28,387 nt of DNA, from the IMG/VR virus record IMGVR_UViG_3300030333_004845, positions 1 through 28,387 of that record; one strand, written 5' to 3'. Made by a program: the position numbers and the translations under genes. A model generated the notes under the pieces. That model worked only from the letters and a program-made list of their open reading frames with translations. It was not told where the DNA came from and searched no databases. This DNA comes from a virus. This document shows, piece by piece, positions 983 to 25,577 of the stretch. Within the stretch, counting starts at the first letter, position 1; every line of letters begins with the position of its first letter.

Positions 983-983
983 T

Positions 984-1523: not shown

Positions 1524-1525
1524 TA

Positions 1526-1935: not shown

Positions 1936-1945
1936 ATGATTTCTC

Positions 1946-2600: not shown

Positions 2601-2638
2601 TTATCTACTCCTAAATATAAACATAATTAATACACAAG

Positions 2639-3478
2639 TCAAGACATTTCTTTAATAAAATCTATTACATCCCTTTTTGGATTCCACCCCAATATATCAC
2701 TAGCCTTAGTATCCTCGCAAAGTGTCTCTCTCATTTCACCAGGCCTCTCATCAATATACTTAATTGGTCCACCAAAAGCCTCAGCTATCTCATTAACTGA
2801 ATAGTTTTTACCTCTACCTAATTCATAATAGTAAAAGAATATATCATTAGCAGCTAATACCAATCCATCCACTATATCATCTACATGAGTAAAATCTCTC
2901 CTTTGTTCTCCGTCACCAGTAATAGTCAATGGTTCATTATTTTTATATTGTGTCTCAAATATACCTATCAATGTACAGTACTCTCCTTCTGTAAGCTGAT
3001 GTGGTCCATATACATTATAAAATCTACATATAGTCGCTGGCAAATTATACACCTTATTATATAGTTCTACCAATTGTTCACCCTGAGACTTACTAAGTGT
3101 ATATGGATTAGCAAACTTATCCCCATTAGATGATGATGAACCAGCATAAACTACTGGACATTCCTTACCTCTAGCCCATTCTAATACATTTAGTGTTGCT
3201 GTTACATTAGAATGAAATGTGTATGTTGGATGTTCAAATGATGGTTGTATTCTAGCTATAGCCGCTAGGTGATATATCACATCAGGTTTATCCATAAAAA
3301 AATCATAATTATCAGTCTGTACTAAATCGACATCAAAATACTGACAACCTTTCTGTTCATTCTCTTTTTTACCTGTAGTGTAGTTATCCAATGAGACTAC
3401 TTTATGACCATCATTCAATAGTCTCTTTATTAAATTAGTACCAATAAATCCAGCACCACCTGTAACTAAGACTCGCAA
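2639..3478 (-). CDS. NAD-dependent sugar epimerase/dehydratase (GalE-like)
   Basis: Extended short-chain dehydrogenase acting on a nucleotide sugar. The Rossmann motif GGAGFIG is at residues 7-13, an Asp for the NAD ribose ends strand 2 (Asp31), HLAA is at 70-73, and the catalytic pair YTLSK is at 126-130, preceded by a Ser-rich strand (AGSSSS). RFYNVYGPHQ follows. At 279 aa it is shorter than typical GalE or RmlB (310-350), the loss being in the substrate-binding C-terminus. The only start that keeps the whole Rossmann strand is TTG at 3478, with GAGGAG eight bases upstream. It overlaps the upstream glycosyltransferase by 13 bases and is the last glycan gene of the run. Whether it is a 4-epimerase, a 4,6-dehydratase or another member is open. 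Confidence 0.8.
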   Translation of the reverse strand: MRVLVTGGAGFIGTNLIKRLLNDGHKVVSLDNYTTGKKENEQKGCQYFDVDLVQTDNYDFFMDKPDVIYHLAAIARIQPSFEHPTYTFHSNVTATLNVLEWARGKECPVVYAGSSSSNGDKFANPYTLSKSQGEQLVELYNKVYNLPATICRFYNVYGPHQLTEGEYCTLIGIFETQYKNNEPLTITGDGEQRRDFTHVDDIVDGLVLAANDIFFYYYELGRGKNYSVNEIAEAFGGPIKYIDERPGEMRETLCEDTKASDILGWNPKRDVIDFIKEMS

Positions 3479-4689
3479 ACAATCAACTCCTCTTCATATG
3501 TATTTAAAGATTTGATATGAAATTTAAATATCTCATATTCCATCTCACCTATCTCGCCGCTATCCTGTAGTAACTCTGATATATTGACGATTACTTGAAA
3601 ATTCTGTGATGTTAGTTTCCTCGCATCAAACTCAACTACAATGTCATGACACTTTGTTATATCAGCATTACCATATAACTTTATTCTCTCATCTAAATTA
3701 AAATCTGTATCTGGCTGTTCTTCCTTCTTATACTCATGCATATAATCAGAACCAAAATCTAAATAAATACAACTACACCAAGGTTCTAACTCTCTGAGTA
3801 AAGTTTTATCGGTATTATAAACCTTGAATCCTATATCATACTTTGGTGGTATGATAGGTTTAAGATATTCATCATGTTTCACCATATGACCCCATTTCCT
3901 GATGAAATTTCGGGTACTCCTGAGGTTTTGTTTTAACCACTCACTTGATTCCCTACCCTTCATAAACACTTGACCTGCAGGATTTCTCAAAGCACCATCT
4001 TTAAATCTACTACCACGACAAGTCATATGATATACAAATCCCTGCCAAGTCTGTATTGTCTCATAACCAGCCAATTGAAACCTATTAAATATATCAGAGT
4101 CCTCTTTGGATTGTGGAGCGTATAACGGATCGTGTCCACCGATTGCCAGAAAGTCATCTTTGTATATAGCCCAAGGTGCAAATATACCATCAGTAGTTCT
4201 ACCAATATTCTTTGATACATTTATATCACCTTCTAACCAACTCATTAATCCCTGTTCATCAAACTCTTCAGGTTCTATACCAAAGTCTTGTAGTATCTTT
4301 TCAGGACCATCAGGGTGTAGTGGTGGCTCTATGCGTGTAGCTGAAACAACACTCCCACGCTGTAGATATTTTAATACTTCAACATCCATGCCAGGACAAG
4401 CATACATATCCGCATGATATATCATAACAATATCGTTAGTTGCCATATCTACTAACTTATCATATAGTATAGTGTGTCCTAACCTAGTGGGACCTTCATT
4501 CCTCATAATCTTTACATTTAAATCTACTTCAGCTATTCCTTGCATCCATTCCCAAGTTCCATCATCTGAAAAATCATCAGCCCAACATATCTCATGTTGA
4601 TGTCCTAAGTTCTTACGAATACTACTATAAGACCACTTTAAATACTTTAGATTGTTTCTACTTGGTTGTATAAAACTAATTTTTTTCAT
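3466..4689 (-). CDS. GT2-type glycosyltransferase, 407 aa
   Basis: An inverting GT-A glycosyltransferase. Numbered from the ATG at 4689, it opens KKISFIQPSRNNLKYLKWS, has the UDP-binding acidic loop ADDFSDDGT (37-45), the metal-binding HADMY (92-96, the DxD equivalent), an acceptor-side acidic pair (KEDSDI, 185-190) and HMTCRG near 211. About 160 residues after the GT domain are of unknown fold. AGGA is placed six to seven bases before 4689, so this ATG is preferred over the one at 4701. The start overlaps the upstream GT-B gene. Sugar and acceptor cannot be told from sequence. Confidence 0.8.
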   Translation of the reverse strand: MKKISFIQPSRNNLKYLKWSYSSIRKNLGHQHEICWADDFSDDGTWEWMQGIAEVDLNVKIMRNEGPTRLGHTILYDKLVDMATNDIVMIYHADMYACPGMDVEVLKYLQRGSVVSATRIEPPLHPDGPEKILQDFGIEPEEFDEQGLMSWLEGDINVSKNIGRTTDGIFAPWAIYKDDFLAIGGHDPLYAPQSKEDSDIFNRFQLAGYETIQTWQGFVYHMTCRGSRFKDGALRNPAGQVFMKGRESSEWLKQNLRSTRNFIRKWGHMVKHDEYLKPIIPPKYDIGFKVYNTDKTLLRELEPWCSCIYLDFGSDYMHEYKKEEQPDTDFNLDERIKLYGNADITKCHDIVVEFDARKLTSQNFQVIVNISELLQDSGEIGEMEYEIFKFHIKSLNTYEEELIVCES

Positions 4690-5662
4690 ATAAATCCTCA
4701 AATATCATTTCTAAATAATCAGAACATCTTTCTTCTGTGTACATTGACTTCTCATAATTCTCTCTACACATTAAACTACATTCTTCATAAAATTTATCGT
4801 CTTTTAACTTCCGAGCTAATTTAATAGCATTGTCCATATCCCCATCATCTACTGATAACAAAGGGTGTAACTCCTCTTGCGTATCCAATCCTTTATATCC
4901 AATACAAGGTATTCCGTGAAATGCACAATTCAATGTGAATGTACCAGCTGCATGTGTTGGCATCATATGAACACCAACGTGATATTGACTCAAACTGTTC
5001 ATCCATTCTACCCAAGTCATGTATGGTAAATGTTGTATATCCATTTCATCTTCTCTATCAATTTTCCTACCCATTGACGGAGCAGATATTGGCATATTAA
5101 ATTGTTGAGCTACCACATAAGAATCAAATCCACCATACCACCTAACCATATTACCACCAATCATTACAGCGTCACCCCACTCATTTCGTGGTATAATACC
5201 CAACCTTTCAGCTAACATTAGTGTTGGCATTTTTTGAACAGGTTTGTTAGTAATTCCTCTGTAGTAATTTACATCCTTCCAATTATGAGCAAATAACATA
5301 TCAAACTCTGTAAGAGAATTGTACCACCAAATCTGTTGTTCCATTGTGTAGTCTTGAAAATACCAATGAGGACCCTCTTGCATTGATATGGTTTTTCTAC
5401 ATAGCTTTTTCAAATCACCCATCATATCAAATGTCACCAATTTGTCCACATTCGTTTTAGGTAATGTTACTATACCAAAGTCAAAATGATTCTCACCAAA
5501 GTGTTGTAACACTTGTGGCAATTGAAAGATAGGATAATGTTCAGCCCCTAACAACCATTTTGTAGAGACATCATTTCTCATATTAGGATTGTCTAATGAA
5601 ACCTTACCTTGCCAACCACCTTCGGTAAACCAAGCTATTTTATATTTGTTCATCCACCCCAT
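4676..5662 (-). CDS. GT-B type glycosyltransferase, 328 aa
   Basis: Probable retaining GT-B enzyme. The N-terminal half opens KYKIAWFTEGGWQGKVS and is rich in aromatic residues. The C-terminal half has the nucleotide-sugar site arrangement of GT4-like enzymes: MMPTHAAGTFTLNCAFHG (about 233-250) followed by IPCIGYKG, comparable to the E-x7-E region plus the P-V-I-A/G strand, although the usual first Glu is replaced by His/Ala. It ends with a helix typical of GT-B (YTEERCSDYLEMIFEDL). The ATG at 5662 has AAGG upstream, with a second ATG nine bases on. It overlaps the dehydratase gene by 13 bases. Family assignment is moderate. Confidence 0.65.
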   Translation of the reverse strand: MGWMNKYKIAWFTEGGWQGKVSLDNPNMRNDVSTKWLLGAEHYPIFQLPQVLQHFGENHFDFGIVTLPKTNVDKLVTFDMMGDLKKLCRKTISMQEGPHWYFQDYTMEQQIWWYNSLTEFDMLFAHNWKDVNYYRGITNKPVQKMPTLMLAERLGIIPRNEWGDAVMIGGNMVRWYGGFDSYVVAQQFNMPISAPSMGRKIDREDEMDIQHLPYMTWVEWMNSLSQYHVGVHMMPTHAAGTFTLNCAFHGIPCIGYKGLDTQEELHPLLSVDDGDMDNAIKLARKLKDDKFYEECSLMCRENYEKSMYTEERCSDYLEMIFEDLYEKN

Positions 5663-6555
5663 ACTAATTCCTTCATTTCTTCTTTTGTCATTTTTGGTGC
5701 TGACTTAGAATTATATGGTTCTGTTAATTTATTATCACCATCATTTTCTTCCATTCTAATATGAATATCATGACCATAGAGATAAGTCCTATCTACTTCA
5801 TTTTTAGAAACCAAATCCTCATCATTCTTTTCCCCAGGCCTTCTTCCAATTATTTCAATATCAGATGAAACAACTTTAGCCAAATCAAACATATTAACAC
5901 ATTTCATTTTATACGACTTAACAAAACCACCACCATGTAGTTCTGTCCAATTAATAGTTCTCTTAATTAATTGAGCTGCATCCTTTTGTGTGAATATTAA
6001 TCTATTCATATCTTTACCTGTAAGTTTAACTGGCTTTCCCTCTTCCTTCAACTTCAACCAAAATGGTAATACTGAACCAGCACTATGAGCTACATTAGCA
6101 AACCTAGTCAACGCAAATCTATTAGTATCGTTATTACTATTCATAAAAACTCTTTCCATCAGATACTTTGAAGCACCATATACACTCTCAGCCAAACAAG
6201 CTTTATCTGTACTGATTCCAACTGTGATTGGTACATCATTAATAATACTAGCTTCTACTACATTCAAACTACCCATTACATTTATATGACACCCAGCAAT
6301 AGGATTCTTTTCCATCAAATCAATATGTTTCATAGCAGCTGCGTGTACCACTACATCTGGCTTCACATCTTTAAATACTCTAAGTAAAAGTCCTTTATCT
6401 TCTACATTACCCACATAAGATTTAACTGATGGATGTTCTCTTTTTAATTCGGCTATCTTCTCTTCGTTTCTACTGACATTGATATACTCATTGTCATTCA
6501 ATTGAATAAGTGATTTGCCAACTGTTCCCGTTCCACCTGTTATTAATACTTTCAT
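5650..6555 (-). CDS. CapD/PseB-like UDP-sugar 4,6-dehydratase
   Basis: Short-chain dehydrogenase of the polysaccharide-biosynthesis (FlaA1/PseB/CapD) group, which converts UDP-GlcNAc to a 4-keto-6-deoxy sugar. It has GGTGTVG (7-13), the family's HAAAMKHIDLMEKNP (71-85), ISTDKA (114-119) and YGASK (126-130). The residue before the Lys helix and the Thr-Asp-Lys triad fit the soluble PseB-like form, since there are no membrane segments. At 301 aa it is slightly short for PseB (about 330). The start is ATG at 6555 in an ATGA overlap with the gene before it. It supplies a 4-keto intermediate that aminotransferases or epimerases elsewhere in the run could use. Confidence 0.85.
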   Translation of the reverse strand: MKVLITGGTGTVGKSLIQLNDNEYINVSRNEEKIAELKREHPSVKSYVGNVEDKGLLLRVFKDVKPDVVVHAAAMKHIDLMEKNPIAGCHINVMGSLNVVEASIINDVPITVGISTDKACLAESVYGASKYLMERVFMNSNNDTNRFALTRFANVAHSAGSVLPFWLKLKEEGKPVKLTGKDMNRLIFTQKDAAQLIKRTINWTELHGGGFVKSYKMKCVNMFDLAKVVSSDIEIIGRRPGEKNDEDLVSKNEVDRTYLYGHDIHIRMEENDGDNKLTEPYNSKSAPKMTKEEMKELVWGG

Positions 6556-6815
6556 TTATCCCACACCGCAATTTGAGTTGCCAACTTAGCATCAACTAAA
6601 TTTATTATCATTTCCTTACAGCCTTCTCCATATCCCATTGTTGTTTCGTATGTAGAAAAAACTTCGTCTACAAGACTAGCTAACTTTATGAATAATTCAG
6701 TATTTTCAACTGTAGTCATTTTCAAGTTCAATTCTTTTTCTTTTTGTTCCAAAACAATAGCTTTCTTTTTTAATTCAGCTTCTATCTGTTTTAATTTATC
6801 TTTATCATTAGACAT
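6552..6815 (-). CDS. Coiled-coil hypothetical protein, 87 aa
   Basis: An unrecognised, largely helical protein. Residues about 4-36 form a strongly charged coiled coil (KLKQIEAELKKKAIVLEQKE), followed by a helical, mildly hydrophobic C-terminus (ELFIKLASLVDEVF, then MIINLVDAKLATQIAVW). The ATG at 6815 has AGGAG seven bases upstream; the in-frame ATG at 6842 has no such site. It is coupled to the dehydratase by ATGA and sits between a sulfotransferase and that dehydratase. It may be a scaffold or regulatory helix for neighbouring enzymes, but nothing shows this. Confidence 0.6.
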   Translation of the reverse strand: MSNDKDKLKQIEAELKKKAIVLEQKEKELNLKMTTVENTELFIKLASLVDEVFSTYETTMGYGEGCKEMIINLVDAKLATQIAVWDK

Positions 6816-6825
6816 CACATCTCTC

Positions 6826-7464
6826 CTATTTAAAAATTTCAAAATCCATACTATACAATTCTCTTACATATTTTTTAATATCTATATTATAATATTTTCT
6901 GTAGGATTCTTGTGTAGTCTTATTTTTATGTGGAATACTTCCTAAAAATGGTTTGCCAGATAACTTAAAAATTATATATTTTATCGAGCTACTTAACCTT
7001 TCAAATCTTCCCACATGATCTAACTTTAATTCTCCATTTAATAATCCCGTAGTTTGTGGCATCCAATGACTATCAGTAAAATTTCCATCTTCGTCTAATA
7101 TTTTGTCAAATACAAAATCTTTAAATGAACATCGTTCTACTAAACCAGCTTTTTGACTCCATTTGTAACAAGATACCAATCTATCATATGGATTTCTAAC
7201 TACAATAAATTTAAAATAATCATTCAATATTTCTTTATTTGTAATAATTTCCCCTTTCCCAGCTGGATGAAAACTATACTTATCGTATATCAAAGATTGT
7301 AATGTTGTTCCACCAGTTCTAGCAGGTTTAAACCAAATTGCTTTCTTTTTATTAGAAATTAGTATAGGAAGTTTTTCCCACGATTGTAAAATATTATTTT
7401 TTTCTGTTACTGTAGAATCATAATAATTATTTTTACTACACAGTCTATTCCACAAGGTACTCAT
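6826..7464 (-). CDS. PAPS-dependent sulfotransferase-like protein
   Basis: Sulfotransferase family protein, predicted to transfer sulfate from PAPS to a carbohydrate hydroxyl. The 5'-phosphosulfate loop reads KPARTGGTTLQSL (46-58), like the K-x-G-G/S-T-S/T of Golgi-type carbohydrate sulfotransferases. The 3'-phosphate site is VVRNPYDRLVSCY (88-100) with the conserved Arg and Ser. At 212 aa it is compact. The start is ATG at 7464, two bases after the upstream TGA; a TTG six bases earlier is less likely. It is unusual in a phage-like setting. It would need host PAPS and suggests a sulfated glycan. Confidence 0.75.
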   Translation of the reverse strand: MSTLWNRLCSKNNYYDSTVTEKNNILQSWEKLPILISNKKKAIWFKPARTGGTTLQSLIYDKYSFHPAGKGEIITNKEILNDYFKFIVVRNPYDRLVSCYKWSQKAGLVERCSFKDFVFDKILDEDGNFTDSHWMPQTTGLLNGELKLDHVGRFERLSSSIKYIIFKLSGKPFLGSIPHKNKTTQESYRKYYNIDIKKYVRELYSMDFEIFK

Positions 7465-7466
7465 AA

Positions 7467-8189
7467 TCAACTTCTAAATGCCATTTGGTTATTGTAATCT
7501 ACTTTCATTCTTGGATAAAACTTTTTTTCTATGTATCTGAATATGTCTTGGTCTTGTGAACCTCTCGGATAATCTACAGGTTCACTATTCAAATAATCTC
7601 TGTAATCATCCATAGTTACTCCATGTGGTATAGCATATTTCATAGCCTCTTCTATCATCTCTTTTACAAATGAAGTCTTACCAATATAAACACCACTATT
7701 CAAATATCTATTTTTAGAATTTATTGTATCAACCCACTCTTTTACTTCTGGCATACAATTGTATCCATCTCTTGAATGAGTAGACATAAACAAAGCATCA
7801 CAATCATACGACTCAAAAATATCTATCACTCTTTGTGGTTCATCTATCCATATAACATCAATAGCATCCAAGCACATAAAGTATTCAGTAGTACATTCGC
7901 CAGAGTTCAGATAGTTATGTAACATTTCAAACTTAAATGTATTTCTCCAAGGTAATCTACTATCTCTAAGTACAACCAACTCTAAACCTAAGTATCTCAT
8001 ATTACTCTCTAAGATAGATTCTTCCTCATAGCCTGATAGATGTGGTATAATTCTATCTTCTAATGTACCCTCATTTCTACAAGTCACTACTGTTAAATTA
8101 TCTGGCATTTGATATTCTATAGGACCATTCATTATTAAATTCTCAAATTCTTTCTTTACTACGTGCCTGTCATGAATTATTGGTTGCAT
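7467..8189 (-). CDS. PLOD-like (collagen-type) glycosyltransferase
   Basis: Resembles the glycosyltransferase domain of animal lysyl hydroxylases (PLOD1-3), which adds sugar to hydroxylysine-linked galactose, and bacterial or viral relatives. Numbered from the ATG at 8189, it has LTVVTCRNEG (32-41), a metal-binding CLDAID (106-111) that matches the family's C-F-D-V-I region, RYLNSGVYIG (161-170) and SQDQDIFRY (211-219), then MKVDYNNQMAF in the place of the family's L-D-x3-x-I-F end. All the usual blocks are present at about 240 aa. It starts in a TAATG overlap. Alternatives are other GT-A enzymes with the L-N-S-G motif. Two oxygenases lie in the same run. Confidence 0.65.
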   Translation of the reverse strand: MQPIIHDRHVVKKEFENLIMNGPIEYQMPDNLTVVTCRNEGTLEDRIIPHLSGYEEESILESNMRYLGLELVVLRDSRLPWRNTFKFEMLHNYLNSGECTTEYFMCLDAIDVIWIDEPQRVIDIFESYDCDALFMSTHSRDGYNCMPEVKEWVDTINSKNRYLNSGVYIGKTSFVKEMIEEAMKYAIPHGVTMDDYRDYLNSEPVDYPRGSQDQDIFRYIEKKFYPRMKVDYNNQMAFRS

Positions 8190-9088
8190 TATATCCAATC
8201 CATATCTTTCATTATCTTCCTAACATCTTCTACATAGACATTTCCATCTGCTTTATGGTTACTCAGAAATCCTCTCTCACCTTCGATACAATATTTACTA
8301 ACCCTTTTTGTATTTGATAACCATCGAGTCTTATCCACCAGCCCAAGTTCTGGTAATTCATTATATAAAAATTCTCTAAATGTTCCTGCATGAGTATTCC
8401 AAGCTGATATTCCTTGATGACCTACACTATCCGTTTTACCAACTCTATTAACAATACCCATACCACCCTCTTGGTACATATCAAATTTGTTATCTGGCAA
8501 CATATCTATCAACTCTCTTTTATAAAAACTAAAAGATCCTCTTGGTTCAAAAGCTTTTGGTATTTCTTTATTATAACCATTATCCAAAAATAACCAATCA
8601 TTTTCTAACTTAACCTTTTCGGTTTCAAACTGATGACCTGTTCCATACCTACTTTCTACTATTGGCTTATGCACATCAACACCTTCAACAATATCAACAA
8701 ATAATTGGTCTGATAATATCAAATTGTCATCGTGTGTAACTAAAATAAAATCATAGTCTTTGTAATCATAGTGTTCAGACCATTGATTGAAGCATTCCAT
8801 ATCACCTACTGTATTATCCTCAACCATAAAATGCCAACCCAAACGAGATATCTGCTGAGTGGTTATTGGATACTCATACATCATTTGATCTAATTGATTT
8901 AAGAAATTATCACCATCTAAGTTTCTAGCATCTTCTTTTTCTTGAACAGTATTATCATCCTCTGGAAGTCTATGTGCTACACAAAAGTAATCCACTTCCC
9001 AACCTTTAGGAACTATTTGTTTAATCATATTCTCATAGAAATGAGAACTAAAATGCCAGCCAGTAGCTATTACTAATATCTTATTCAC
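8189..9088 (-). CDS. Putative GT-A glycosyltransferase, 299 aa
   Basis: It has the outline of a GT-A enzyme: a first strand with turn (MNKILVIATGWHFSSHFYEN), a middle strand ending in an acidic metal site (FILVTHDDNLILS, Asp-Asp at 120-121), then a substrate-side region (FEPRGSFSFYKRELID), as in GT2 enzymes where a residue is checked after the DxD. No family name can be given with confidence. The GTG at 9088 is coupled to the upstream methyltransferase gene by GTGA. The SD is weak, so coupling probably drives translation. Confidence 0.5.
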   Translation of the reverse strand: MNKILVIATGWHFSSHFYENMIKQIVPKGWEVDYFCVAHRLPEDDNTVQEKEDARNLDGDNFLNQLDQMMYEYPITTQQISRLGWHFMVEDNTVGDMECFNQWSEHYDYKDYDFILVTHDDNLILSDQLFVDIVEGVDVHKPIVESRYGTGHQFETEKVKLENDWLFLDNGYNKEIPKAFEPRGSFSFYKRELIDMLPDNKFDMYQEGGMGIVNRVGKTDSVGHQGISAWNTHAGTFREFLYNELPELGLVDKTRWLSNTKRVSKYCIEGERGFLSNHKADGNVYVEDVRKIMKDMDWI

Positions 9089-9642
9089 GAAAAATCCAAA
9101 TCATACATATCAGTATTGTATATAGCAGACGCTGAATACTTAACATTACCAGTCAATATCTTATAACCTACCTTTTCTTTTATGTCATACATACTTCCAC
9201 CATTATGTCCATGTGAATCTCTCTCTTTTGAACCACCCTCAAAAAATACAACCGAACCATTTTTAATCTGTTCCTTTACTGTATTATAAAGTACTGTTAA
9301 TTTTTCAGATGTATTGTTGATATCAAAATAAAGAAAGTCGAAATCTGTTGGATTTTTTACCCAATCAAAAAAGTCAAGGTTTTCCAAAGTTATATAGTTA
9401 GCCACCCCCCAAGCATCATATTCTATTTGAGTCACAGTTTGTTTTCCCCAATACCTATCATCCCAAATATCGTATGAATTTATATGACCATCTATATTAT
9501 TTTCATCTAAAGCCTTAGCCATAGTTATTGTTGTATATCCCGCACCAGGACCAAACTCTATTATTTTCTTAGGTTTTAAAGTAACTATAAAATCATATAA
9601 AATAGGCATCCACTCATATTTTCCGTGTGTGGGTATGTTCAT
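9085..9642 (-). CDS. Class I SAM-dependent methyltransferase, 185 aa
   Basis: Rossmann methyltransferase with motif I EFGPGAGYTT (29-38) and a motif II acidic residue after strand 2 (SYDIW, 56-60). A motif III-like LENLDFFDWV and then FDFLYFDI form strand 4 with its Asp. A late strand carries SVVFFEGGS. The small size and GAGYTT motif resemble O-methyltransferase-type and class I enzymes of glycan clusters. AGGAG lies ahead of the ATG at 9642, which overlaps the upstream stop by one base. The substrate is unknown, probably a sugar hydroxyl given the neighbours. Confidence 0.7.
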   Translation of the reverse strand: MNIPTHGKYEWMPILYDFIVTLKPKKIIEFGPGAGYTTITMAKALDENNIDGHINSYDIWDDRYWGKQTVTQIEYDAWGVANYITLENLDFFDWVKNPTDFDFLYFDINNTSEKLTVLYNTVKEQIKNGSVVFFEGGSKERDSHGHNGGSMYDIKEKVGYKILTGNVKYSASAIYNTDMYDLDFS

Positions 9643-10574
9643 TATAAATTCTCCTTTACCTTATCTATTATGTATTCTATTTCTAAAAGTGATAATGTTT
9701 CATTCATTGGCAAACTAACAGTTCTTTTCTCCAACTTTTCAGATTTAGGACAATTGAATTCTACTCCATCATTATATATTGGATTCTTATGAAGTGCTGG
9801 ATAATGTACACCACAGACTATACCATCATTTCTCATATTATTAATAAATTTTTCATTATCTAAAACCTCTATTGTGTATAGGTGTTGACTTGAGTTTTCA
9901 TAACCTAATTCTCTATTATATATATCAACCAATTTCCTCAACACACCCATTTTTTTACCAAATGTTTTAAAATTTTCCATTAGTATTTCAGCTTGAACCG
10001 AATTCATATACATCTTATAACCTGGAAAAGATATATTCCTTTCCCAATTATTCTCAGCATAACTCATACCATTAAGTACAGCCTCTTTAAACCATTTATA
10101 TTTTTTGTAATCATCTGTAACGATTACTCCGCCATCTATACCACCTAAAGGTTTAGTTGGGTAATGACTAAATATCATCACATCATCTGGCTTACATTCC
10201 TTTCTAAATTGATTCTTCTCTAATTTTTGAGCAGAGTCTACCACCTTATATGTTCTGAATTTATGTAAAATATATGAATTACCAAACCACTTAACATTAT
10301 CTGTAAACTCTACTTTGTTATGACTTGTAATAATAGCATTAGCAACTACAGGTGGAATCATACTTGGTATTTTAATTATACGAGGTTTCAGGAAGTAATC
10401 CATAGTAAAAGTTAAGAAGATAGCATTGGTTGCACTATTAATAGCACAAGCATACTTAGCACCCACATACTCTGCTATTTTCTTTTCAAACTCTACTACT
10501 ACATCATCATGTAGAATATTAGAAAATTTAGAAGTGTCTATAATATGATTATTTATGTTAAACAGTTGAATCAT
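9642..10574 (-). CDS. DegT/DnrJ/EryC1 sugar aminotransferase
   Basis: PLP-dependent aminotransferase that aminates a keto nucleotide sugar. Numbered from the ATG at 10574, it has CAINSATNAIFLT (43-55, phosphate-binding turn), VVDSAQKLE (111-119, with the Asp that holds the PLP pyridine), and FSHYPTKPLGGIDGGVIVT (135-153), where Lys141 is the Schiff-base lysine. A SVQAEILMENF helix and a C-terminal domain ending in NETLSLLEIEYIIDKVKENL follow. At 310 aa it is somewhat shorter than the usual 360-390. It is next to RmlD-like, FdtA-like and RmlC-like genes, so a dTDP-3-keto-6-deoxysugar (as for FdtB/EvaB) is a reasonable substrate. Confidence 0.85.
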   Translation of the reverse strand: MIQLFNINNHIIDTSKFSNILHDDVVVEFEKKIAEYVGAKYACAINSATNAIFLTFTMDYFLKPRIIKIPSMIPPVVANAIITSHNKVEFTDNVKWFGNSYILHKFRTYKVVDSAQKLEKNQFRKECKPDDVMIFSHYPTKPLGGIDGGVIVTDDYKKYKWFKEAVLNGMSYAENNWERNISFPGYKMYMNSVQAEILMENFKTFGKKMGVLRKLVDIYNRELGYENSSQHLYTIEVLDNEKFINNMRNDGIVCGVHYPALHKNPIYNDGVEFNCPKSEKLEKRTVSLPMNETLSLLEIEYIIDKVKENL

Positions 10575-12707: not shown

Positions 12708-12717
12708 ATCAATCTCC

Positions 12718-17906: not shown

Positions 17907-18667
17907 AATAGTTCCTCATAAGTTCTTTCTATCCAATAATTAGCATCTCTACCCATTGGATTTTGTGGTATTGAATTAAAATGATAAATCCAACCAGCAT
18001 CCAAATAATGTAACTCATCAGTCCACCACTCTTGACCATGAACCACCAACAAATTCTTTCTAAATAAATCTTGTAAGTTATAGCAGCTTGGTAAATACTT
18101 AACATCTACTTCTTCTTTATGTAACATATAATTTACTATAGTTTGATCAGTACCACATTTTAGTTCATCAATAGTCTTAGTAATCTTTTCACTATTTTCT
18201 TTATAATACGACTTCATAGCATTAAAAAAATCTTTATGATTATAGTTAACAATCTGAAATCCCCCGTTGATATAATTCCAAGGATGTATTCTCATACCAT
18301 CAAATAATTTATCACCAAATCCTCTGATACTCCTCAGTACCCATTCATAGCAACCATCAACTCTAACCCCACAATACTTACCTTCCGTTTCTTCAAAGAA
18401 ATTAGGACAATCAGGATGTACAATTGTATCAGCATCTACCATAAGAACTTGATCATATTGAATACCATTAGCCTCTAATATATCAAAAAGATAATACCTT
18501 TGCCAAGTAATTTTCATATACTCCACAGGGTACAATAAATCTTCCCATATCAATAACTCACAATTATTCTTATCACACCACCTTTTCCAACTCTTGACAG
18601 AATAAGAATAAGAATCACTTCTACCATTACCTAAATCTATATTTGGAATAAAAACTACATTCTTCAT
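17903..18667 (-). CDS. GT8-like glycosyltransferase
   Basis: GT-A enzyme resembling GT8/galactosyltransferase-type proteins. KITWQRYYLFDIL (52-64), QVLMVDADTIVHPD (73-86, DxD as DAD), YINGGFQIVNY (132-142, the N-G-G motif of the family) and CGTDQTIVNYML (C-terminal half, with the G-T-D-Q motif) are all in order. VVHGQEWW and IYHFNSIPQ (late His) complete the active site. 254 aa is complete. Start in ATGA overlap with the DUF616 gene; weak SD. Confidence 0.75.
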   Translation of the reverse strand: MKNVVFIPNIDLGNGRSDSYSYSVKSWKRWCDKNNCELLIWEDLLYPVEYMKITWQRYYLFDILEANGIQYDQVLMVDADTIVHPDCPNFFEETEGKYCGVRVDGCYEWVLRSIRGFGDKLFDGMRIHPWNYINGGFQIVNYNHKDFFNAMKSYYKENSEKITKTIDELKCGTDQTIVNYMLHKEEVDVKYLPSCYNLQDLFRKNLLVVHGQEWWTDELHYLDAGWIYHFNSIPQNPMGRDANYWIERTYEELF

Positions 18668-19350
18668 TTTTTGCCTATATGTGGATTTGTATCTCTGTAA
18701 AAATATTCGTTATCTCTAGAGTCACCATCCATATAATTAAACTTCAAATCATTCTTCCAAGCACAGTAATTAAAACTCAATTGGTCTCTCTTACTATTAT
18801 ACTTTATTTCAGTCCACCAATCTTCCATTGTCTTTATACAATCAGCCTCATTGTGCCTTCTCAATATAACCATACCTGTTATCAAACCATCATTTGCTGG
18901 ATACCTTAACATTCTATACCTTTCCATTTGTTTCTGTATAACAAACGGATTATCTTTATAATTTAAAATACCTCTTTCTGGACTCCTATTCATATTCTTC
19001 TCACCCAAAGCAAATATAGTTTGTGCTTCATCATAAGCAGAGTTTCTGGCATCCAAATGATTATTACCATGACTAAAAAATGCAACATTGGTATCACTTA
19101 AATACTTGTCAATCAAATCATCCAAGTTACCTCTAACAGTCATATTACCATCTATAAAAACACTATACTCATAGTTCTGAAAGTATCTATGTGGCAATAT
19201 CTTAAACCTCTTAGCGTTCCTATTATTATCTTCATATATAGGTAAACTATTTTCTTCACTAAAGCACTTCCAATCCCACCCCGAAGATGTTTGTTCTACA
19301 ACCTTATCGTAACCACCAAATACAGAAGTATAAATTATACGGTCTGACAT
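18664..19350 (-). CDS. DUF616-type glycosyltransferase
   Basis: Matches DUF616 (TOD1/MUCI70 family), a glycosyltransferase-like family of plants and bacteria. IIYTSVFGGYDKV (5-17) is the family's opening, RFKILPHRYFQNYEYSVF (48-65) the core, FIDGNM (65-70) the metal-binding site, and KRDQLSFNYCAWK the late helix with the conserved Arg-Asp-Gln. 228 aa. The SD is GAGGG before the ATG at 19350. It overlaps the upstream fusion gene by 16 bases. Confidence 0.8.
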   Translation of the reverse strand: MSDRIIYTSVFGGYDKVVEQTSSGWDWKCFSEENSLPIYEDNNRNAKRFKILPHRYFQNYEYSVFIDGNMTVRGNLDDLIDKYLSDTNVAFFSHGNNHLDARNSAYDEAQTIFALGEKNMNRSPERGILNYKDNPFVIQKQMERYRMLRYPANDGLITGMVILRRHNEADCIKTMEDWWTEIKYNSKRDQLSFNYCAWKNDLKFNYMDGDSRDNEYFYRDTNPHIGKK

Positions 19351-20774
19351 ATTATTCCCTCATAATCTTTCAATATTTTATGTGCCGTTTTCTCAAAGAC
19401 AACATTTTTCTTATGCCCTATTTTATTAATAACCTTTAACACTCCACCATCCACTAATTCGTTTATACATTTCATTACTGTATTCGGAAATAATCCGTAG
19501 TCATCAAAAAACAATAATGGTTTGTTAAAATAATTTATAGCATTTAAAATATCTCTCTTTACAAAATCATATTCATGTACACAATCAATAAAAACAACTT
19601 GATGATTTTTATCAAAATCCCACGCAGTACCATACACATCTTTGACAATATAATCTATATTTGTTTTACTACTATTGAACTCCCTAGCTGCTTGAATCCT
19701 AGCTGGGTCGTAATCCACAGCAGTTACCTTATTAAAATATCCACTTAATACATGAGTTGTATATCCTAAAGAACATCCTATCTCAATCACATTTTTATCT
19801 TTAAAATCATTCCCTAAAAAATCTATTAAATCACCTTTAAACTTTAATGAAGTAGTCGTCTTAGATTCAAACTTATCGGGAGCTGATAAATGGATTCTTT
19901 TGTATTCGTCATCTAAAAGATTCTCACCACGAACAAAATTATGAGCTATTGGAAATTGTCTCTGAACACTATGTACATCAGAATATCTAGTTACCAATTG
20001 AGTAGTTCCACATTGATTACCTACATTATATCTAGCTTTAGATTTAATATACAACTGAATCCGTACTGACATATTTCTCATATCTAATGCTTTATCTATA
20101 AAATCAAATTCAGTTTGTTCAAGTGGTCTCTCAGTCCAATAAAAATGTTTTAATCCTGTATCTATCTTTTCAATTATTAACTTATCCATAGTATAGTCAT
20201 ATCTATCTGATATCAACAAGCAACCAAAATCATTGTCGTGAACATACTCTTCTATGATAGCATCACCCAATTCTTTTTCCTCATCAGACCAATATAGTTC
20301 TGGTTGAGAATCTTCATATTCACTCTCTTTAAATTGCCAGAACTTCAACATCTGTTCAACCAATGGAATATCTGTATTATCTTTATCATAGACTCTGTAA
20401 TGATCGTGGAATACTTCACCATCATACTCATCTACAAAATCATCTACATATGGATTATGTTTAAATACATTCTCTACATTAGTAAATGGATTACCCCAAG
20501 CATTCCAATTACCAGCATACTGACTAAACAGCTTTTCTAAAAGAGTAACTGACGGAACATATACTTTACAATCAGGATATTTCTCTTTGAGTAAGCGTGG
20601 CATCGCTGATATGATTCCCCAATCACCTATACCATGAGCAGTTCTCATAACCATAAACTCTTTTCTATCTAAGTAATCATCTGGAATAGCTAATCCATCT
20701 GACTTTTCAAATCCTAAAGCATCTGTTTCTTCAACTGGATAAACCTGATTATCTACAATTCTCCAAAATATCAT
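19335..20774 (-). CDS. GT9-like glycosyltransferase fused to a methyltransferase
   Basis: A two-domain protein of 479 aa. Residues about 39-290 look like a GT9 (heptosyltransferase/ADP-heptose-type) GT-B fold: FMVMRTAHGIGDWGIISAMP (40-59) is the N-terminal loop of that family, and a second half contains NQCGTTQLVTRYSDVHSV (253-270), placed where the G-D/T-x-H donor site lies. Residues about 305-470 are a class I methyltransferase: KNVIEIGCSLGYTTHVL (327-343), VTAVDYD (350-356), then HQVVFIDCVHEYDF, and PLLFFDDYG. The linker sits near 290-310. The GT half is less certain than the methyltransferase. GAGAGG lies ahead of the ATG at 20774. Confidence 0.7.
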   Translation of the reverse strand: MIFWRIVDNQVYPVEETDALGFEKSDGLAIPDDYLDRKEFMVMRTAHGIGDWGIISAMPRLLKEKYPDCKVYVPSVTLLEKLFSQYAGNWNAWGNPFTNVENVFKHNPYVDDFVDEYDGEVFHDHYRVYDKDNTDIPLVEQMLKFWQFKESEYEDSQPELYWSDEEKELGDAIIEEYVHDNDFGCLLISDRYDYTMDKLIIEKIDTGLKHFYWTERPLEQTEFDFIDKALDMRNMSVRIQLYIKSKARYNVGNQCGTTQLVTRYSDVHSVQRQFPIAHNFVRGENLLDDEYKRIHLSAPDKFESKTTTSLKFKGDLIDFLGNDFKDKNVIEIGCSLGYTTHVLSGYFNKVTAVDYDPARIQAAREFNSSKTNIDYIVKDVYGTAWDFDKNHQVVFIDCVHEYDFVKRDILNAINYFNKPLLFFDDYGLFPNTVMKCINELVDGGVLKVINKIGHKKNVVFEKTAHKILKDYEGIICQTV

Positions 20775-21439
20775 ACACCTCTCCGTACATTCATTTCTCT
20801 ACTAAAGTTTTTATTGTAAAACATATTTTGTTCTTCTTGTTTTTGTATCGTCTTTGGGTGATACAAACTCAATTCCTCATGTGGTGGCAAATGTGAATAG
20901 GTTTTATATCCTCTTATTACTTCATGTAGAGGTCTTTCCCAACGAATTTCACTATCACGCCGAAATACACGAGCTTGATAATCGGGATAATTTACCCATT
21001 TATTTTCTGTAACTCTCCATCCCCATCTATTAATATGTTCGTCTTTCATACCTTCAATTGTATTTACTCTTGGCACCCACACCAAATCCACATCATTAAT
21101 TTCTAATATCTGTTTCAATTGTTGTAGTAATATTTCATTAGGATATTCATCAGCATCTATATGAAAGATGTAATCACCTTTTGAGTTTTCTATGATTGAA
21201 TTCTTTTGTGCAGCAAAGTCTTTATTAAGTTTCCTCTGATATACCTTTATCATTTTGGTATGAGCATATTGTTGAGTCCAACTGTCTAATACAAATCTTA
21301 CCGCGTCATCTTCACCATTCGTATCATCAACACAAACTATTATCTCATCTTCAGCATCTGTCTTATGTACAAGTATCTCTAATAACTTATTTAATTCATC
21401 TGCCTCATTGTAGACTGTAATGCCATAACTAATATTCAC
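20771..21439 (-). CDS. GT2 family glycosyltransferase, 222 aa
   Basis: Short GT2 enzyme of the type with a single GT-A domain. ITVYNEADELNKLLEIL (7-23), IVCVDDTNGEDD (34-45, UDP loop), AAQKNSIIENSKGDYIFHID (76-95) and the metal DADEY (95-99), then WVPRVNTIEG and YPDYQARVFRRDSEIRWERP, typical of the WaaE/KdtX-like group in which R-x-F-R and a late H-E follow. The late PLHEVI is the family's active-site His-Glu. GTG start at 21439 with AAGG upstream. ATG-GTG overlap with the next gene. Confidence 0.8.
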   Translation of the reverse strand: MNISYGITVYNEADELNKLLEILVHKTDAEDEIIVCVDDTNGEDDAVRFVLDSWTQQYAHTKMIKVYQRKLNKDFAAQKNSIIENSKGDYIFHIDADEYPNEILLQQLKQILEINDVDLVWVPRVNTIEGMKDEHINRWGWRVTENKWVNYPDYQARVFRRDSEIRWERPLHEVIRGYKTYSHLPPHEELSLYHPKTIQKQEEQNMFYNKNFSREMNVRRGV

Positions 21440-21875
21440 CGAGAAGATCCTTTACATAAGCTGGTGGCAATCTCAAATCTTCCAAAAATACCTGACTCTT
21501 AGTAGCTTTATCGTAGTTATAAGTTCTGTATATTCCATGTTGTTTTATTAATGACTTCAATGATGTATAAACCTGTTGGGTTTTTTCTTCTATATCTACT
21601 CTATACACTTGTTTATCTTCATCAACTACTTCAACTAAACCAGCAGTCTCTAATATATTCTGCATTACATTCGGCGCATTTACAGCTTGATTGGAAACCT
21701 CTAATTGTATTCCATGTATTAAAAACTTACTTGATGGATTCTTAGCTTCATTCATTAGTTTCGGTTCTAATACTAATATACTTCTTCTTAAAATACGACC
21801 TTCCTTATTCGGATATCTGAATGAGATTATATCTCCTCGTTTAACTCTACTCCAACTATAAGTTAACTTACCCAT
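21429..21875 (-). CDS. Phage-type hypothetical protein with SH3-like N-terminus
   Basis: A 148-aa soluble protein. The N-terminal part (WSRVKRGDIISFRYPNKEG and RRSILVLEPKL) has the strand pattern of small SH3-like barrels such as the MazF/PemK fold, though none of the toxin catalytic residues is evident. The middle and C-terminus are helical (KTQQVYTSLKSLIKQ, then YRTYNYDKATKSQVFLEDLR). Function unknown. It interrupts the glycosyltransferase run with the zinc-ribbon gene before it. It is joined to the previous gene by a TAATG overlap. I recall similar unnamed proteins in marine T4-like phages, but cannot confirm that here. Confidence 0.6.
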   Translation of the reverse strand: MGKLTYSWSRVKRGDIISFRYPNKEGRILRRSILVLEPKLMNEAKNPSSKFLIHGIQLEVSNQAVNAPNVMQNILETAGLVEVVDEDKQVYRVDIEEKTQQVYTSLKSLIKQHGIYRTYNYDKATKSQVFLEDLRLPPAYVKDLLGEY

Positions 21876-22348
21876 TAGAGATCAACCTTATCACCAACAT
21901 CTTCCATCATAATTCCCATAGCTTTACAAGCATCAAGAAATTCAAATTGGCCAAATATTTGTGGATTTTCTATATCCAATTTTTTGTCATGGCCATCATA
22001 TTGATCTCTTTCTTCCTCAGGCACATCAACTACTTTAGCATAATTCCAGTACCAATCAGTAAGTTTACCATCTGGATATATTATACCTCTTTCTCCCATA
22101 TTAACTACTGATGGAAACCAAACAAGACCTCTTTCTTCATCCACTATCTTTAAATCATTCATTAATTGGGTATTATTTTCAGTAGCTTTCTCCAAGTGTT
22201 CACTATCTATAGCCATATAAGAATTGGTAGTCATACCACAACCAAAACACATATATGACTCAAATGGCTTTTCATCGACTACAGTTTGTTCTACAAAACA
22301 ATTATTGTGTAAATCTTGACATAATGGACAATTAGTTTTACTTTCCAT
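21875..22348 (-). CDS. Zinc-ribbon hypothetical protein, 157 aa
   Basis: The N-terminus holds two CxxC knuckles (CPLC, Cys7 and Cys10; CFGC, Cys34 and Cys37), the spacing of a zinc ribbon. The rest is acidic and unassigned, with aromatic-rich stretches (DGKLTDWYWNYAKVVDV) and a helix (IFGQFEFLDACKAMGIMM). No DNA-binding or catalytic motif is seen. It sits between a GT-B gene and the SH3-like hypothetical. The ATG at 22348 has AAGG a suitable distance upstream and overlaps the GT4 gene by 11 bases. Possible roles are binding of nucleic acid or protein. Confidence 0.6.
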   Translation of the reverse strand: MESKTNCPLCQDLHNNCFVEQTVVDEKPFESYMCFGCGMTTNSYMAIDSEHLEKATENNTQLMNDLKIVDEERGLVWFPSVVNMGERGIIYPDGKLTDWYWNYAKVVDVPEEERDQYDGHDKKLDIENPQIFGQFEFLDACKAMGIMMEDVGDKVDL

Positions 22349-23702
22349 GATTAACCTTCTTCAATTGTGGTAATTTTTTAGTAGGAACGCCCATCGAACC
22401 TTTATCATTATCTGGCGTATTAACTTTTCTAAGCTTTGGAAGTTTCAAGTTTACTGCCTGTGGAATCTCTTCAAATTTAGGAAGATATTTATTCAGTATT
22501 TCCTCGAACTTCTTATCCATACCTTCTAATGAAAACTTAGCTCTATTAGATATAGCTAACCTTTTAGCTGGTAAAGTATATTTTTTATATTCTTTAAAGA
22601 CCTTAAACATCATCTGACCAGCATACTGATAATTAACAGCGAACCATTGAGCACCTGATTGTAACATTTCTTTTGGAACAGCCGACTTATGAACATCAAT
22701 CAAAGTACCTGGCAAAAGAACAGCGTTCTTATTATTAAGAAAATCCTTTTGCCCACCCCAATCTGGAGCTATAATAGGCTTCTCAGAAAAACAAGCTTCC
22801 AATAATGGTCTTCCAAATCCTTCACCATGAGTAAAAGTTATATGCACTTTAACCTTTGGATGATTATAAAGTTCATTTATTTCTTCATCAAGGAGATCTC
22901 CATGTAACAAATAAACATTAGGTAACTTACCTTTCACCGACCTTTTTATATCTTCAATTTTTTCTAACATTGTATTTCTATCTATAACAGAAAATGTAGC
23001 ACCACTTGTTTTCATTATTAAAGCTGGTGGATTTTTCTTATTCTTAAATGTTTCAAGAAATACCTTAAGCAACATACCTGTATCTTTTCTATCTTGACCT
23101 AAATCACCTTGCAACCAATGTCCTGTATAAAGAAATGCAAATTTCTCTGGAATCTTTTCCATTTCATCTACCAACTCTTTAGAAAACTCTTTGGTTTTTT
23201 TATAGATGTTTAAGTCAGCACCCTCAAATAAAACTTCCATTGGCTTAGTCATTCTTAATTCACCAACTTTTTGTTTTTGTTCATTCAACTTATCATAAAC
23301 AACACTATCGAATGTGTTTTTGACGAATTCAGATACAGCAATATTCATATCCATTCTGTTTAAACCTTCAATCCATTCAGCTTTTGGTGCTGTATTTTCT
23401 ATACCAGCGGTTACACCAATATTATATTTACCAACTCTAGTAAATTCATTTGGTACACTTACTTGAAAATGAATGTCTGGCTGTCTTGGCAAGCTATTAT
23501 CTGACATTAGCCTATCAATAATCAACTTATCTTTAGGATCTTTTTCATTAAGAGCATTCATAGGTGTATTTCCCCACCTCAAAGAATTTACATGAATGTC
23601 AAATCTATCCATATTAATTAATGAATGAATTAAATCTCTTGTGTGAGCACCATAACCACTTCTGGTTGCTGGTGGCCCTGTAACTAATACTAATGGTCTC
23701 AT
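22338..23702 (-). CDS. GT4-like glycosyltransferase with C-terminal motif repeat
   Basis: GT-B enzyme of the GT4/group 1 type. The glycine-rich N-terminal loop is TGPPATRSGYGAHTRD (8-23); FLYTGHWLQGDLGQDRKDTG (190-209) begins the C-terminal domain; ITFTHGEGFGRPLLEACFSE (288-307) is the E-x7-E nucleotide-sugar motif (Glu294 and Glu302), followed by KPIIAPDWGG. After the fold, a low-complexity tail carries two copies of a nine-residue motif: KLPKLRKVN (420-428) and KLPQLKKVN (443-451). AGGAG before the ATG at 23702. 454 aa is longer than the core fold needs. Confidence 0.8.
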   Translation of the reverse strand: MRPLVLVTGPPATRSGYGAHTRDLIHSLINMDRFDIHVNSLRWGNTPMNALNEKDPKDKLIIDRLMSDNSLPRQPDIHFQVSVPNEFTRVGKYNIGVTAGIENTAPKAEWIEGLNRMDMNIAVSEFVKNTFDSVVYDKLNEQKQKVGELRMTKPMEVLFEGADLNIYKKTKEFSKELVDEMEKIPEKFAFLYTGHWLQGDLGQDRKDTGMLLKVFLETFKNKKNPPALIMKTSGATFSVIDRNTMLEKIEDIKRSVKGKLPNVYLLHGDLLDEEINELYNHPKVKVHITFTHGEGFGRPLLEACFSEKPIIAPDWGGQKDFLNNKNAVLLPGTLIDVHKSAVPKEMLQSGAQWFAVNYQYAGQMMFKVFKEYKKYTLPAKRLAISNRAKFSLEGMDKKFEEILNKYLPKFEEIPQAVNLKLPKLRKVNTPDNDKGSMGVPTKKLPQLKKVNHGK

Positions 23703-23710
23703 CCTATCTC

Positions 23711-25105
23711 CTATCCTTCAAAAATTGTAAATCGTTTACGTGGTGTCCATTTTTCAAAAGCTGTGTTCATATGTTCTTTAAACAAATTACACATAGCAGC
23801 TGCTGACATCATAGCATCATCACTCATAACAAATTCATGACCTTTCATACCACACTCTTTCCGTTTTTCTGGTCCCATATCATACCACTCTTTAAGAGCA
23901 TCAGCAAAATCCTCAAATCGAGGTCTGTCATCAAAAATATATGGTGTTGGTATTGAACCTTGTAAACTTCTATTAGAAGGCCAGACTGGTTTAGCCCACT
24001 CACCATGAGTAAGGTCTGGATTATCTTTCCATTTTTTCTCATCATGTAATGAATGAACCCAACTGTAATCTTCATAGGTTAATAACTTATCCTTATACTT
24101 AAATCCACATTGGTCTTGTAATCCACCAGTAACATTAACTGATATTGGAGTACCACACATTAAAGACTCACAAGTACCTAAACCAAATCCTTCATTAGAA
24201 GCCATATTGATTGTAACATCAGCTATATTGTAAAGATAATTAAGTTGTTGGTCAGAGAGTTTTTTATGAGAAAATATAACATCGTAATCTGGACAAACAT
24301 TTTTTACAACCTCTGGTAAATTAGTTCCATTAGGATCTTTAGGTTGGGTGTGCATTATTAGAGCACATCTCTTAGCTTTTTCCTCAGGTAACATATCACA
24401 AAATGTTTTAAATGCAAGTATAACATCACCAGGAAGCTTTCTACGAATATTACGATTATTCCAGAACACTATAAAATCATATTCCCTATCGTCAACCACA
24501 TTTCGTTTAAAGTTTAATAAGTCTCCCCACTCTTTAACATCCAGTTCATCAATAGGATAGAAATTATCTGAATTGATTCCATGTGGAACATAAGTATTAT
24601 TCCAATCATTCGTTGGAACATTCTGGCGGACATTCTTAACAATATTGTGAGTCTGTTTTGAAATATTCATAATCAAATCACAACTCTCATAGAATGGTTC
24701 ATTCCACATTGGATAAGGCAAGTCATCCCAAATATTATAATAGAATATTGGTATTTCCATTCTAATCTCATGTTCCATTTGATATAACCATTCCCAAAAT
24801 CTTGGGTCTGTGTAGTGAAGTATAGCATCTGGCTTTTCAGTTGCTATCATATGCCTTAATAATTCAGGATTTCCATAACCACTAACAGGAACTATTTTTA
24901 GATATGCATCTTCTATACCAGTTTCTTTACGAACCGAATCATTCATATCAATAAATTTACCAGCATCTGGATGTTTAATAGCACCACCAATCTGAACCCA
25001 TTGGAAATGTTCTAAAGTACCCATAACTATTTCTCGAGACATTGTACCGACACCAGATGACATTCTCAAATCATCTGACAATAACAGAATCTTCTTCTTA
25101 TCCAT
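23711..25105 (-). CDS. GT4-like glycosyltransferase, 464 aa
   Basis: First glycosyltransferase of the run, GT-B type. KILLLSDDLRMSSGVGTMSR (5-24) is the N-terminal acceptor loop; YVPHGINSDNFYP (172-184) and FIVFWNNRNIRRK (211-223) are the linker and the start of the C-terminal domain with the phosphate-binding basic residues; NMASNEGFGLGTCESLMCG (300-318) is the E-x7-E motif (Glu305 and Glu313), then TPISVNVTGG. The last 130 residues include WAKPVWPSNRSLQGS, an insertion relative to ordinary GT4 enzymes. A GAGGG SD precedes the ATG at 25105. Substrate unknown. Confidence 0.8.
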   Translation of the reverse strand: MDKKKILLLSDDLRMSSGVGTMSREIVMGTLEHFQWVQIGGAIKHPDAGKFIDMNDSVRKETGIEDAYLKIVPVSGYGNPELLRHMIATEKPDAILHYTDPRFWEWLYQMEHEIRMEIPIFYYNIWDDLPYPMWNEPFYESCDLIMNISKQTHNIVKNVRQNVPTNDWNNTYVPHGINSDNFYPIDELDVKEWGDLLNFKRNVVDDREYDFIVFWNNRNIRRKLPGDVILAFKTFCDMLPEEKAKRCALIMHTQPKDPNGTNLPEVVKNVCPDYDVIFSHKKLSDQQLNYLYNIADVTINMASNEGFGLGTCESLMCGTPISVNVTGGLQDQCGFKYKDKLLTYEDYSWVHSLHDEKKWKDNPDLTHGEWAKPVWPSNRSLQGSIPTPYIFDDRPRFEDFADALKEWYDMGPEKRKECGMKGHEFVMSDDAMMSAAAMCNLFKEHMNTAFEKWTPRKRFTIFEG

Positions 25106-25538: not shown

Positions 25539-25577
25539 AACATTAATCTCCGTATATACATATATAAATATATAAAA

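Follow-up and report, generated by a model that had tools for sequence, protein, structure and literature searches.

Conserved ends, an exchangeable middle, and no membrane export genes in a large glycan cassette of marine T4-superfamily phages related to Immutovirus

Glycan gene clusters have been noted in marine T4-like phages since at least 2010; their function was left open, and even "stuffer DNA" was considered (PMC3037559). A defence against superinfection has been proposed for such clusters (PMC7824862), and a change in the host O-chain has been proposed for those of pelagimyophages (PMC7029224). The present study concerns a cassette of this kind at positions 2639-25105 of a 28,387-nucleotide stretch of virus DNA (hereafter, the window), which represents positions 1 to 28,387, and thus most, of the 29,427-base IMG/VR virus record IMGVR_UViG_3300030333_004845. 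An earlier reading of the window made from its letters (the sequence-only reading) described about 29 consecutive minus-strand genes at this location, and the listing of open reading frames (ORFs) gave exactly 29. Genes are numbered in the direction of transcription from g01 (27698-28297) to g42 (387-668), and the cassette comprises g08-g36 (Table 1). Since large glycan clusters have been described in T4-like cyanophages, the kind of cluster is already known. The claim that marine phages usually carry fewer and less varied glycan genes was overstated because the clusters of P-SSM2, S-SSM7, and S-SM2 have a comparable enzyme mix (PMC3037559). As far as the literature shows, the apparently new elements are a serotype-locus architecture across a lineage, a systematic lack of export genes, evidence for selection and exchange, a late-type motif common to a cultured phage, and a likely host.

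The cassette of Immutovirus (Flavobacterium phage vB_FspM_immuto, MW353176; ~49.1-59.9 kb) lies in the same place as that of the window. Both loci have a PD-(D/E)XK gene, a small leader gene preceded by the late-type motif, a glycosyltransferase (GT) pair, a g10 homologue position, and a GT2 gene. These are followed in Immutovirus by a DegT gene, a methyltransferase, an epimerase (55% to g36), and a GT (47% to g35), with no transmembrane proteins. However, the Immutovirus cassette has ~13 genes rather than 29, a sulfotransferase and C-methyltransferase are not annotated, and Shine-Dalgarno sequences are almost absent. Microcystis phage Mel-JY01 (~83-90 kb) shares the PD-(D/E)XK gene followed by a pair of GTs and a small cluster that includes a methyltransferase and lacks transmembrane proteins, but has ~8 genes, other flanks, and a first GT split into two annotated ORFs. 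The hli03-proximal 'LPS' (lipopolysaccharide) cluster of the T4-like Prochlorococcus phage P-SSM2 (NC_006883, 193.4-205.5 kb) similarly contains overlapping epimerases, GT2/GT1 enzymes, a 2-oxoglutarate (2OG) oxygenase, and a methyltransferase without transmembrane proteins; however, P-SSM2 belongs to Kyanoviridae, and its cluster has a different place and ~15 genes. O-antigen/capsule loci of the E. coli O16 type resemble the phage cassette in their conserved ends, variable middle, segment exchange, and similar sugar enzymes, but have Wzx and Wzy, while the phage cassette has neither of these nor a transporter. Virion glycosylation in mycobacteriophages (cited in PMC12619734) likewise involves phage GTs and a proposed virion-protein acceptor; there the glycan was observed on the capsid and tail tube, whereas the present case is a large decorated-sugar pathway predicted from its genes.

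Six GTs (g08, g09, g12, g14, g30, and g35) exceeded the Pfam cut-off, and up to five others (g15, g34, g29, g17, and g19) are likely. Roughly twelve had been claimed; therefore, six are firm and eleven is the upper count. The remaining inventory of the sequence-only reading was confirmed by family matches: five methyltransferase domains (Pfam/NCBIfam), two oxygenases and a sulfotransferase (Pfam), a cytidylyltransferase-like HIGH-type nucleotidyltransferase (g16, PF01467), and six of the "six or seven" sugar-nucleotide enzymes. Several GTs and nucleotide-sugar enzymes thus occur in a single phage block. Only g32 (6552), g11 (21429), and g10 (21875) were not recognizable as glycan enzymes. The names PseB, PseC, and RfaE-II for g33, g27, and g16 denote the nearest matches, and the exact reactions are left unnamed because all three fall below NCBIfam equivalog cut-offs. 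No match to g34 was detected in Pfam, PHROG, the phage collection, or PDB sequences. The AlphaFold2 model of g34 has a predicted GT-B fold (predicted local distance difference test [pLDDT] 91.5), and its best Foldseek matches include Gtf3, which functions in protein glycosylation, BshA, and SenB (E ~1e-9 for Gtf3 and BshA). Based on this model, g34 is a likely GT-B glycosyltransferase; its family has at least 80 loci, on contigs reaching 303 kb. The model of g29 (pLDDT 87) matched mostly GT-A or sugar-nucleotide enzymes with template modeling scores of 0.48 or less, suggesting a putative, weakly GT-A-like protein. A PDB sequence search with g34, g29, g17, and g11 yielded nothing convincing.

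The window record is a fragment without a structural gene, and its placement is based on synteny with relatives. A search of IMG/VR with g08 retained 80 loci, and matches in phage records were to Immutovirus and Mel-JY01, with a more distant one to Rhodothermus phage RM378. The sequence-only reading proposed a phage genome and suggested a search for capsid, terminase, and tail genes. Relatives bearing the syntenic cassette encode a T4-type head and tail, and these genes are related to those of Immutovirus. The 125-kb relative G008 has a baseplate wedge (39% identity to Immutovirus), TerL (54%), and gp20 portal (51%) as well as the cassette; G014 has gp23 (53% to Immutovirus), sheath, and tail genes; and gp23 lies ~3 kb or less behind the cassette in G012. 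We concluded from this synteny that the carrier is a T4-superfamily myovirus related to Immutovirus. In the independent record G002, the gene order is near-identical from end to end, with ~80-99% nucleotide identity for most genes, which rules out an assembly join; the same order was also found in other relatives. A chromosomal surface-polysaccharide locus and a chimeric assembly, either of which would have overturned the earlier claim, were both rejected because relatives combine this order with phage hallmark genes.

The position of the cassette was constant across the records compared. Its front consists of g02-g06, the GT pair g08/g09, g10, often g11, and g12, followed by a variable middle, and its back consists of g35/g36 and then g37-g42 where the record extends that far. 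Cassette length ranged between ~15 and ~36 kb, and 18 distinct cassettes contained 184 gene families, 108 of which were confined to one record. The families of g08, g09, g10, g12, g15, g34, and g35 were present in 15-20 of 20 records. Enzymes in other cassettes include NeuB, cytidylyltransferases, GDP-mannose dehydratases, UDP-sugar dehydrogenases, and thiamine pyrophosphate enzymes. The locus accordingly has the fixed position, conserved ends, and exchangeable middle of a serotype-like locus. Close relatives differ by swapped genes; G002, for example, has a different gene in place of g31 and lacks g21.

Nonsynonymous divergence (dN) was far below synonymous divergence (dS) in nearly all of the cassette genes compared, although the larger dS estimates suffer from saturation and are imprecise. 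The cassette genes are under purifying selection; therefore, the cassette is functional rather than filler. In the comparison with G002, the dS of the block g15-g19 was 0.03-0.20, against 0.67 and 0.41 for the neighbors g14 and g20. Similarly, g23 had a dS of 0.25-0.37 and DNA identity of 94-95% with G006 and G016, whereas the values of its neighbors were ~1 or above and ~72-76%, respectively. The low dS values of this block and of the single gene g23 are signs of recent exchange between phages.

A simple hydrophobicity scan of 20 records detected no cassette ORF with two or more transmembrane segments (0/531). In the non-redundant set, multi-spanning ORFs numbered 0 of 182 in cassettes and 7 of 250 outside (p 0.023), which is a modest contrast. 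The same scan detected 6 and 9 segments in the E. coli Wzy and Wzx, respectively. Therefore, a flippase, polymerase, and transporter are absent from the cassettes, and none of the 20 has the Wzx/Wzy or ABC-transporter genes of a surface polysaccharide locus. Multi-spanning proteins are likewise missing from the P-SSM2, Immutovirus, and Mel-JY01 clusters.

Nearly all genes of the cassette were claimed to overlap, and 26 of its 28 junctions do, with the remaining two being shorter than 20 nt; outside the cassette in G008, 55 of 140 junctions overlap. The shared strand is uninformative about an operon because nearly all G008 ORFs also share one, and strand uniformity was rejected as evidence on this ground. 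The claim of a single-transcript glycan pathway holds for the pathway, and co-transcription is probable. A TTGAC-N-TATATT motif, which stands out by its strand bias, is located before g02 and g37 and also before many small genes, and its copy before g02 is the probable start of an upstream read-through unit. The late-type motif [GT]ATATTTAT[AT] was distributed 54 to 2 by strand in intergenic regions outside cassettes and was enriched upstream of virion genes, both in Immutovirus (p 0.013) and in the marine relatives (p 0.002). It stands directly before g06 in the window, as well as in Immutovirus (position 48909) and 29 of the 52 distinct relatives, which suggests late expression of the cassette with moderate strength. 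The canonical T4 late promoter TATAAATA was rejected because it was not enriched on the coding strand, and a generic sigma-70 and terminator scan found sites no more numerous than in shuffles. The gap before g06 (25539-25577) and its equivalents in relatives contain a longer conserved AT-rich element, TATATATTTATATATGTATATA, the second half of which may be an operator because it is near-palindromic and is kept where the late-type motif has changed.

The sequence-only reading left three targets for the glycan: the host surface, the virion, and DNA. We tentatively favor the virion, through a soluble, late-expressed pathway that adds the glycan to an acceptor in the cytoplasm, with a virion protein as the most likely candidate, because the cassette has no membrane export machinery and is preceded by the late-type motif. 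Soluble enzymes made late in infection would act on host nucleotide sugars, and unusual sugars would arise by dehydration, keto-isomerization, transamination, and C-methylation. These sugars would be strung together on an acceptor, namely, a capsid, fiber, or tail protein in the cytoplasm, and the product would finally be methylated, sulfated, and possibly hydroxylated. Common steps may fall to the conserved GTs g08/g09 and g34/g35, and the exchangeable middle may set a variable outer glycan; particles of related phages would therefore differ like serotypes. It is conceivable, though doubtful at this level of detail, that the particles of a whole ocean phage lineage are covered by complex glycans that are specific to the lineage and made wholly in the cytoplasm, with genes or blocks swapped by recombination between conserved ends in a phage counterpart of the O-antigen locus. 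Several points weigh against virion glycosylation. The acceptor is a prediction. Missing export genes do not constitute proof because cytoplasmic GTs can use lipid-linked host precursors that host proteins export. Moreover, the late-type motif, which is AT-rich, was found in the very data used to test it and is missing in its strict form from 23 of the 52 relatives, while the early-type promoter further upstream, before g02, leaves early expression possible.

That promoter could also serve the main rival, which we regard as a real possibility: a lipid-linked precursor (O-unit, core, or capsule) may be built or decorated on the cytoplasmic face and exported by the host, and the changed surface may block superinfection or readsorption. 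The literature has interpreted similar clusters in this manner (PMC7824862, PMC7029224), cassette enzymes resemble O-antigen enzymes, and relatives encode another envelope gene, a TonB-dependent receptor. However, an initiating membrane transferase, as well as the flippase, polymerase, and transporter, is absent in 20/20 cassettes, and the motif directly before the cassette is of the late type. Glycosylation of modified bases in the phage genome, as performed by T4 glucosyltransferases, is improbable. The GT pair lies near DNA-metabolism genes, and the fold matches of g34 include T4 alpha-glucosyltransferase below the top rank; however, PF00303 genes (thymidylate synthase/hydroxymethylase), expected for hydroxymethyl-nucleotide synthesis, were found in none of 16 fragmentary marine records (~0.9 Mb), and the DNA-modification genes that relatives do carry are of the Mom family. 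Known DNA glucosylation systems also differ from this pathway in size and hypervariability. Only a small chance is likewise given to a small glycosylated metabolite or the modification of a host protein. A metabolite was proposed for a related cyanophage cluster (PMC7824862), and sulfotransferases, oxygenases, and methyltransferases also serve small-molecule tailoring, but no polyketide/peptide synthetase or other scaffold-maker was among the family matches, and the many GTs point toward an oligosaccharide. The range in cassette length would suit non-functional filler that enlarges the genome for headful packaging, as was raised for cyanophage clusters; nevertheless, the strong purifying selection on the genes, whose overlapping frames are intact, and the conservation of the anchors make this explanation very improbable, and dN far below dS largely contradicts it. 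Regarding virion glycosylation, the lineage supplies testable facts (purifying selection, no export machinery, and a promoter-like motif enriched before virion genes), and the cultured relative Immutovirus (Flavobacterium sp. LMO8), with its smaller cassette, makes the idea directly testable.

Some relatives encode giant repetitive, Ser/Thr/Gly-rich fiber-like proteins, such as a 1600-aa protein with 28% Ser+Thr in G012 (oriented 48268-53070) and a 4469-aa protein ending in a Peptidase_S74 domain in G008 (L091:480-13889:+). These could be glycan acceptors; nothing ties them to the cassette. The PLOD-type GT and the oxygenases hinted at a collagen-type acceptor, which was rejected because GXY repeats were not found.

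The host is probably a member of Marinimicrobia. The TonB-dependent receptor is encoded upstream of the cassette in seven relatives (G001, G008, G011, G013, G016, G017, and G018), and its closest bacterial homologues are from Candidatus Neomarinimicrobiota (up to 69% identity, and almost every one of the first 24 matches listed). Contigs encoding g08 relatives were present in 3 of 245 Marinimicrobia-phylum genomes (82, 55, and 43%) versus 0 of 396 Bacteroidota genomes, and two of the three clearly have cassette genes; the chance of a 3:0 split is ~(245/641)^3 = 0.06. The share of genes preceded by a Shine-Dalgarno sequence is 36-59% for the marine phages, compared with 29% for Marinimicrobia contigs, 3% for Immutovirus, and 0/25 for Bacteroidota contigs, which disfavors a Bacteroidota host by analogy with Immutovirus. 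Since binning errors could explain the three contigs, a Marinimicrobia host stays a prediction. These results point toward phages of Marinimicrobia, for which a phrase search of the literature consulted yielded only two papers. The G001 receptor (L094:2047-4770:-; 907 aa) has CarbopepD_reg and Plug domains and lies between a B12-type ribonucleotide reductase and DNA polymerase.

Table 1. Coordinates of cassette genes, flanking genes, and promoter-like motifs in the window
Feature	Coordinates	Strand	Basis
Sigma-70-like candidate promoter TTGACT-N18-TATATT before g02	27676..27705	-	motif strand-biased, intergenic in relatives
g03 PD-(D/E)XK nuclease, conserved 5' flank	26385..27251	-	PF12705, phrog_69; syntenic in Immutovirus and relatives
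Late-type promoter-like motif TATATTTATA before g06/cassette	25563..25572	-	strand bias; function inferred
g06 small conserved leader gene	25350..25538	-	76 loci; small Immutovirus gene at equivalent place
g08 GT4-type glycosyltransferase, conserved 5' anchor	23711..25105	-	PF00534; 83 loci; 48.7% to Immutovirus
g09 GT4-type glycosyltransferase, conserved 5' anchor	22338..23702	-	PF00534; 20/20 records
g10 conserved protein with invariant Cys residues	21875..22348	-	alignment; without family match
g11 conserved protein	21429..21875	-	alignment; without PDB match
g12 GT2 glycosyltransferase, end of conserved front	20771..21439	-	PF00535
g13 two-part protein, C-terminal methyltransferase domain	19335..20774	-	PF13578/PF13649 at 330-426
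g14 TOD1/MUCI70-type glycosyltransferase	18664..19350	-	PF04765, phrog_26101
g15 GT8-like glycosyltransferase, below cut-off	17903..18667	-	PF01501 E 6e-4; family in 18/20 records
g16 HIGH-type nucleotidyltransferase, nearest RfaE-II adenylyltransferase domain	17481..17906	-	PF01467; TIGR02199 below cut-off
g17 putative GT, conserved DSD motif only	16732..17481	-	alignment; 33 viral loci
g18 methyltransferase	16010..16735	-	PF13578
g19 DUF5672 protein, possible GT	15258..16046	-	PF18922
g20 FkbM-type methyltransferase	14627..15277	-	PF05050; TIGR01444 above cut-off
g21 2OG-Fe(II) oxygenase, absent from close relatives	13893..14630	-	PF13640; only record of its family
g22 sugar C-methyltransferase	12718..13911	-	PF08421+PF13489+PF08484
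g23 cupin, RmlC/WbuC-like	12324..12707	-	PF00908 and TIGR04366, both below cut-off
g24 FdtA-type sugar 3,4-ketoisomerase	11911..12327	-	PF05523
g25 2OG-Fe(II) oxygenase	11277..11924	-	PF13640
g26 RmlD-like sugar reductase	10558..11280	-	PF04321
g27 DegT-type sugar aminotransferase, nearest PseC	9642..10577	-	PF01041; TIGR03588 below cut-off
g28 methyltransferase	9085..9642	-	PF13578
g29 putative GT-A-like glycosyltransferase	8189..9088	-	AlphaFold2 and Foldseek
g30 PLOD-type glycosyltransferase domain	7467..8198	-	PF25342 above cut-off
g31 sulfotransferase, variable among close relatives	6826..7470	-	PF03567; replaced in G002
g32 small protein	6552..6842	-	no family match
g33 UDP-sugar 4,6-dehydratase, nearest PseB	5650..6555	-	PF02719; TIGR03589 below cut-off
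g34 likely GT-B-fold glycosyltransferase, family in many viral contigs	4676..5662	-	AlphaFold2 and Foldseek
g35 GT2 glycosyltransferase, conserved 3' anchor	3466..4701	-	PF00535; family in 16/20 records; 47% to Immutovirus
g36 nucleotide-sugar epimerase/dehydratase, cassette 3' end	2639..3478	-	PF01370; 55% to Immutovirus
Predicted sigma-70-like promoter before g37, cassette 3' end	2614..2642	-	same place in many relatives
g37-g42 conserved 3' flank: g37 lipoprotein-like, g41 single-span	387..2497	-	synteny, hydrophobic segments

Among the flanking genes, g37 (1946-2497), which is conserved at the 3' flank of the cassette, has a lipoprotein-type signal (a hydrophobic stretch followed by GC-EDIE), and its product could reach the host envelope. 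A PADLOC scan gave weak matches only, to g03 and g05 (the latter to ShosA), and an Rfam search gave zero matches. The gene g05 (25578-26033), conserved beside the cassette, shows a DprA/SLOG-type nucleotide-binding likeness (phrog_289 and phrog_768). The gene g01 (27698-28297) matches phrog_1384 (Mom-like) and, weakly, DruA, and is present in four relatives only. Two Mom-family DNA-modification proteins (PF25680) are encoded just upstream of the cassette in G001 (L093:17899-18663:- and L093:15657-16292:-), and the counterpart of the second lies past the window end in the window's own record.

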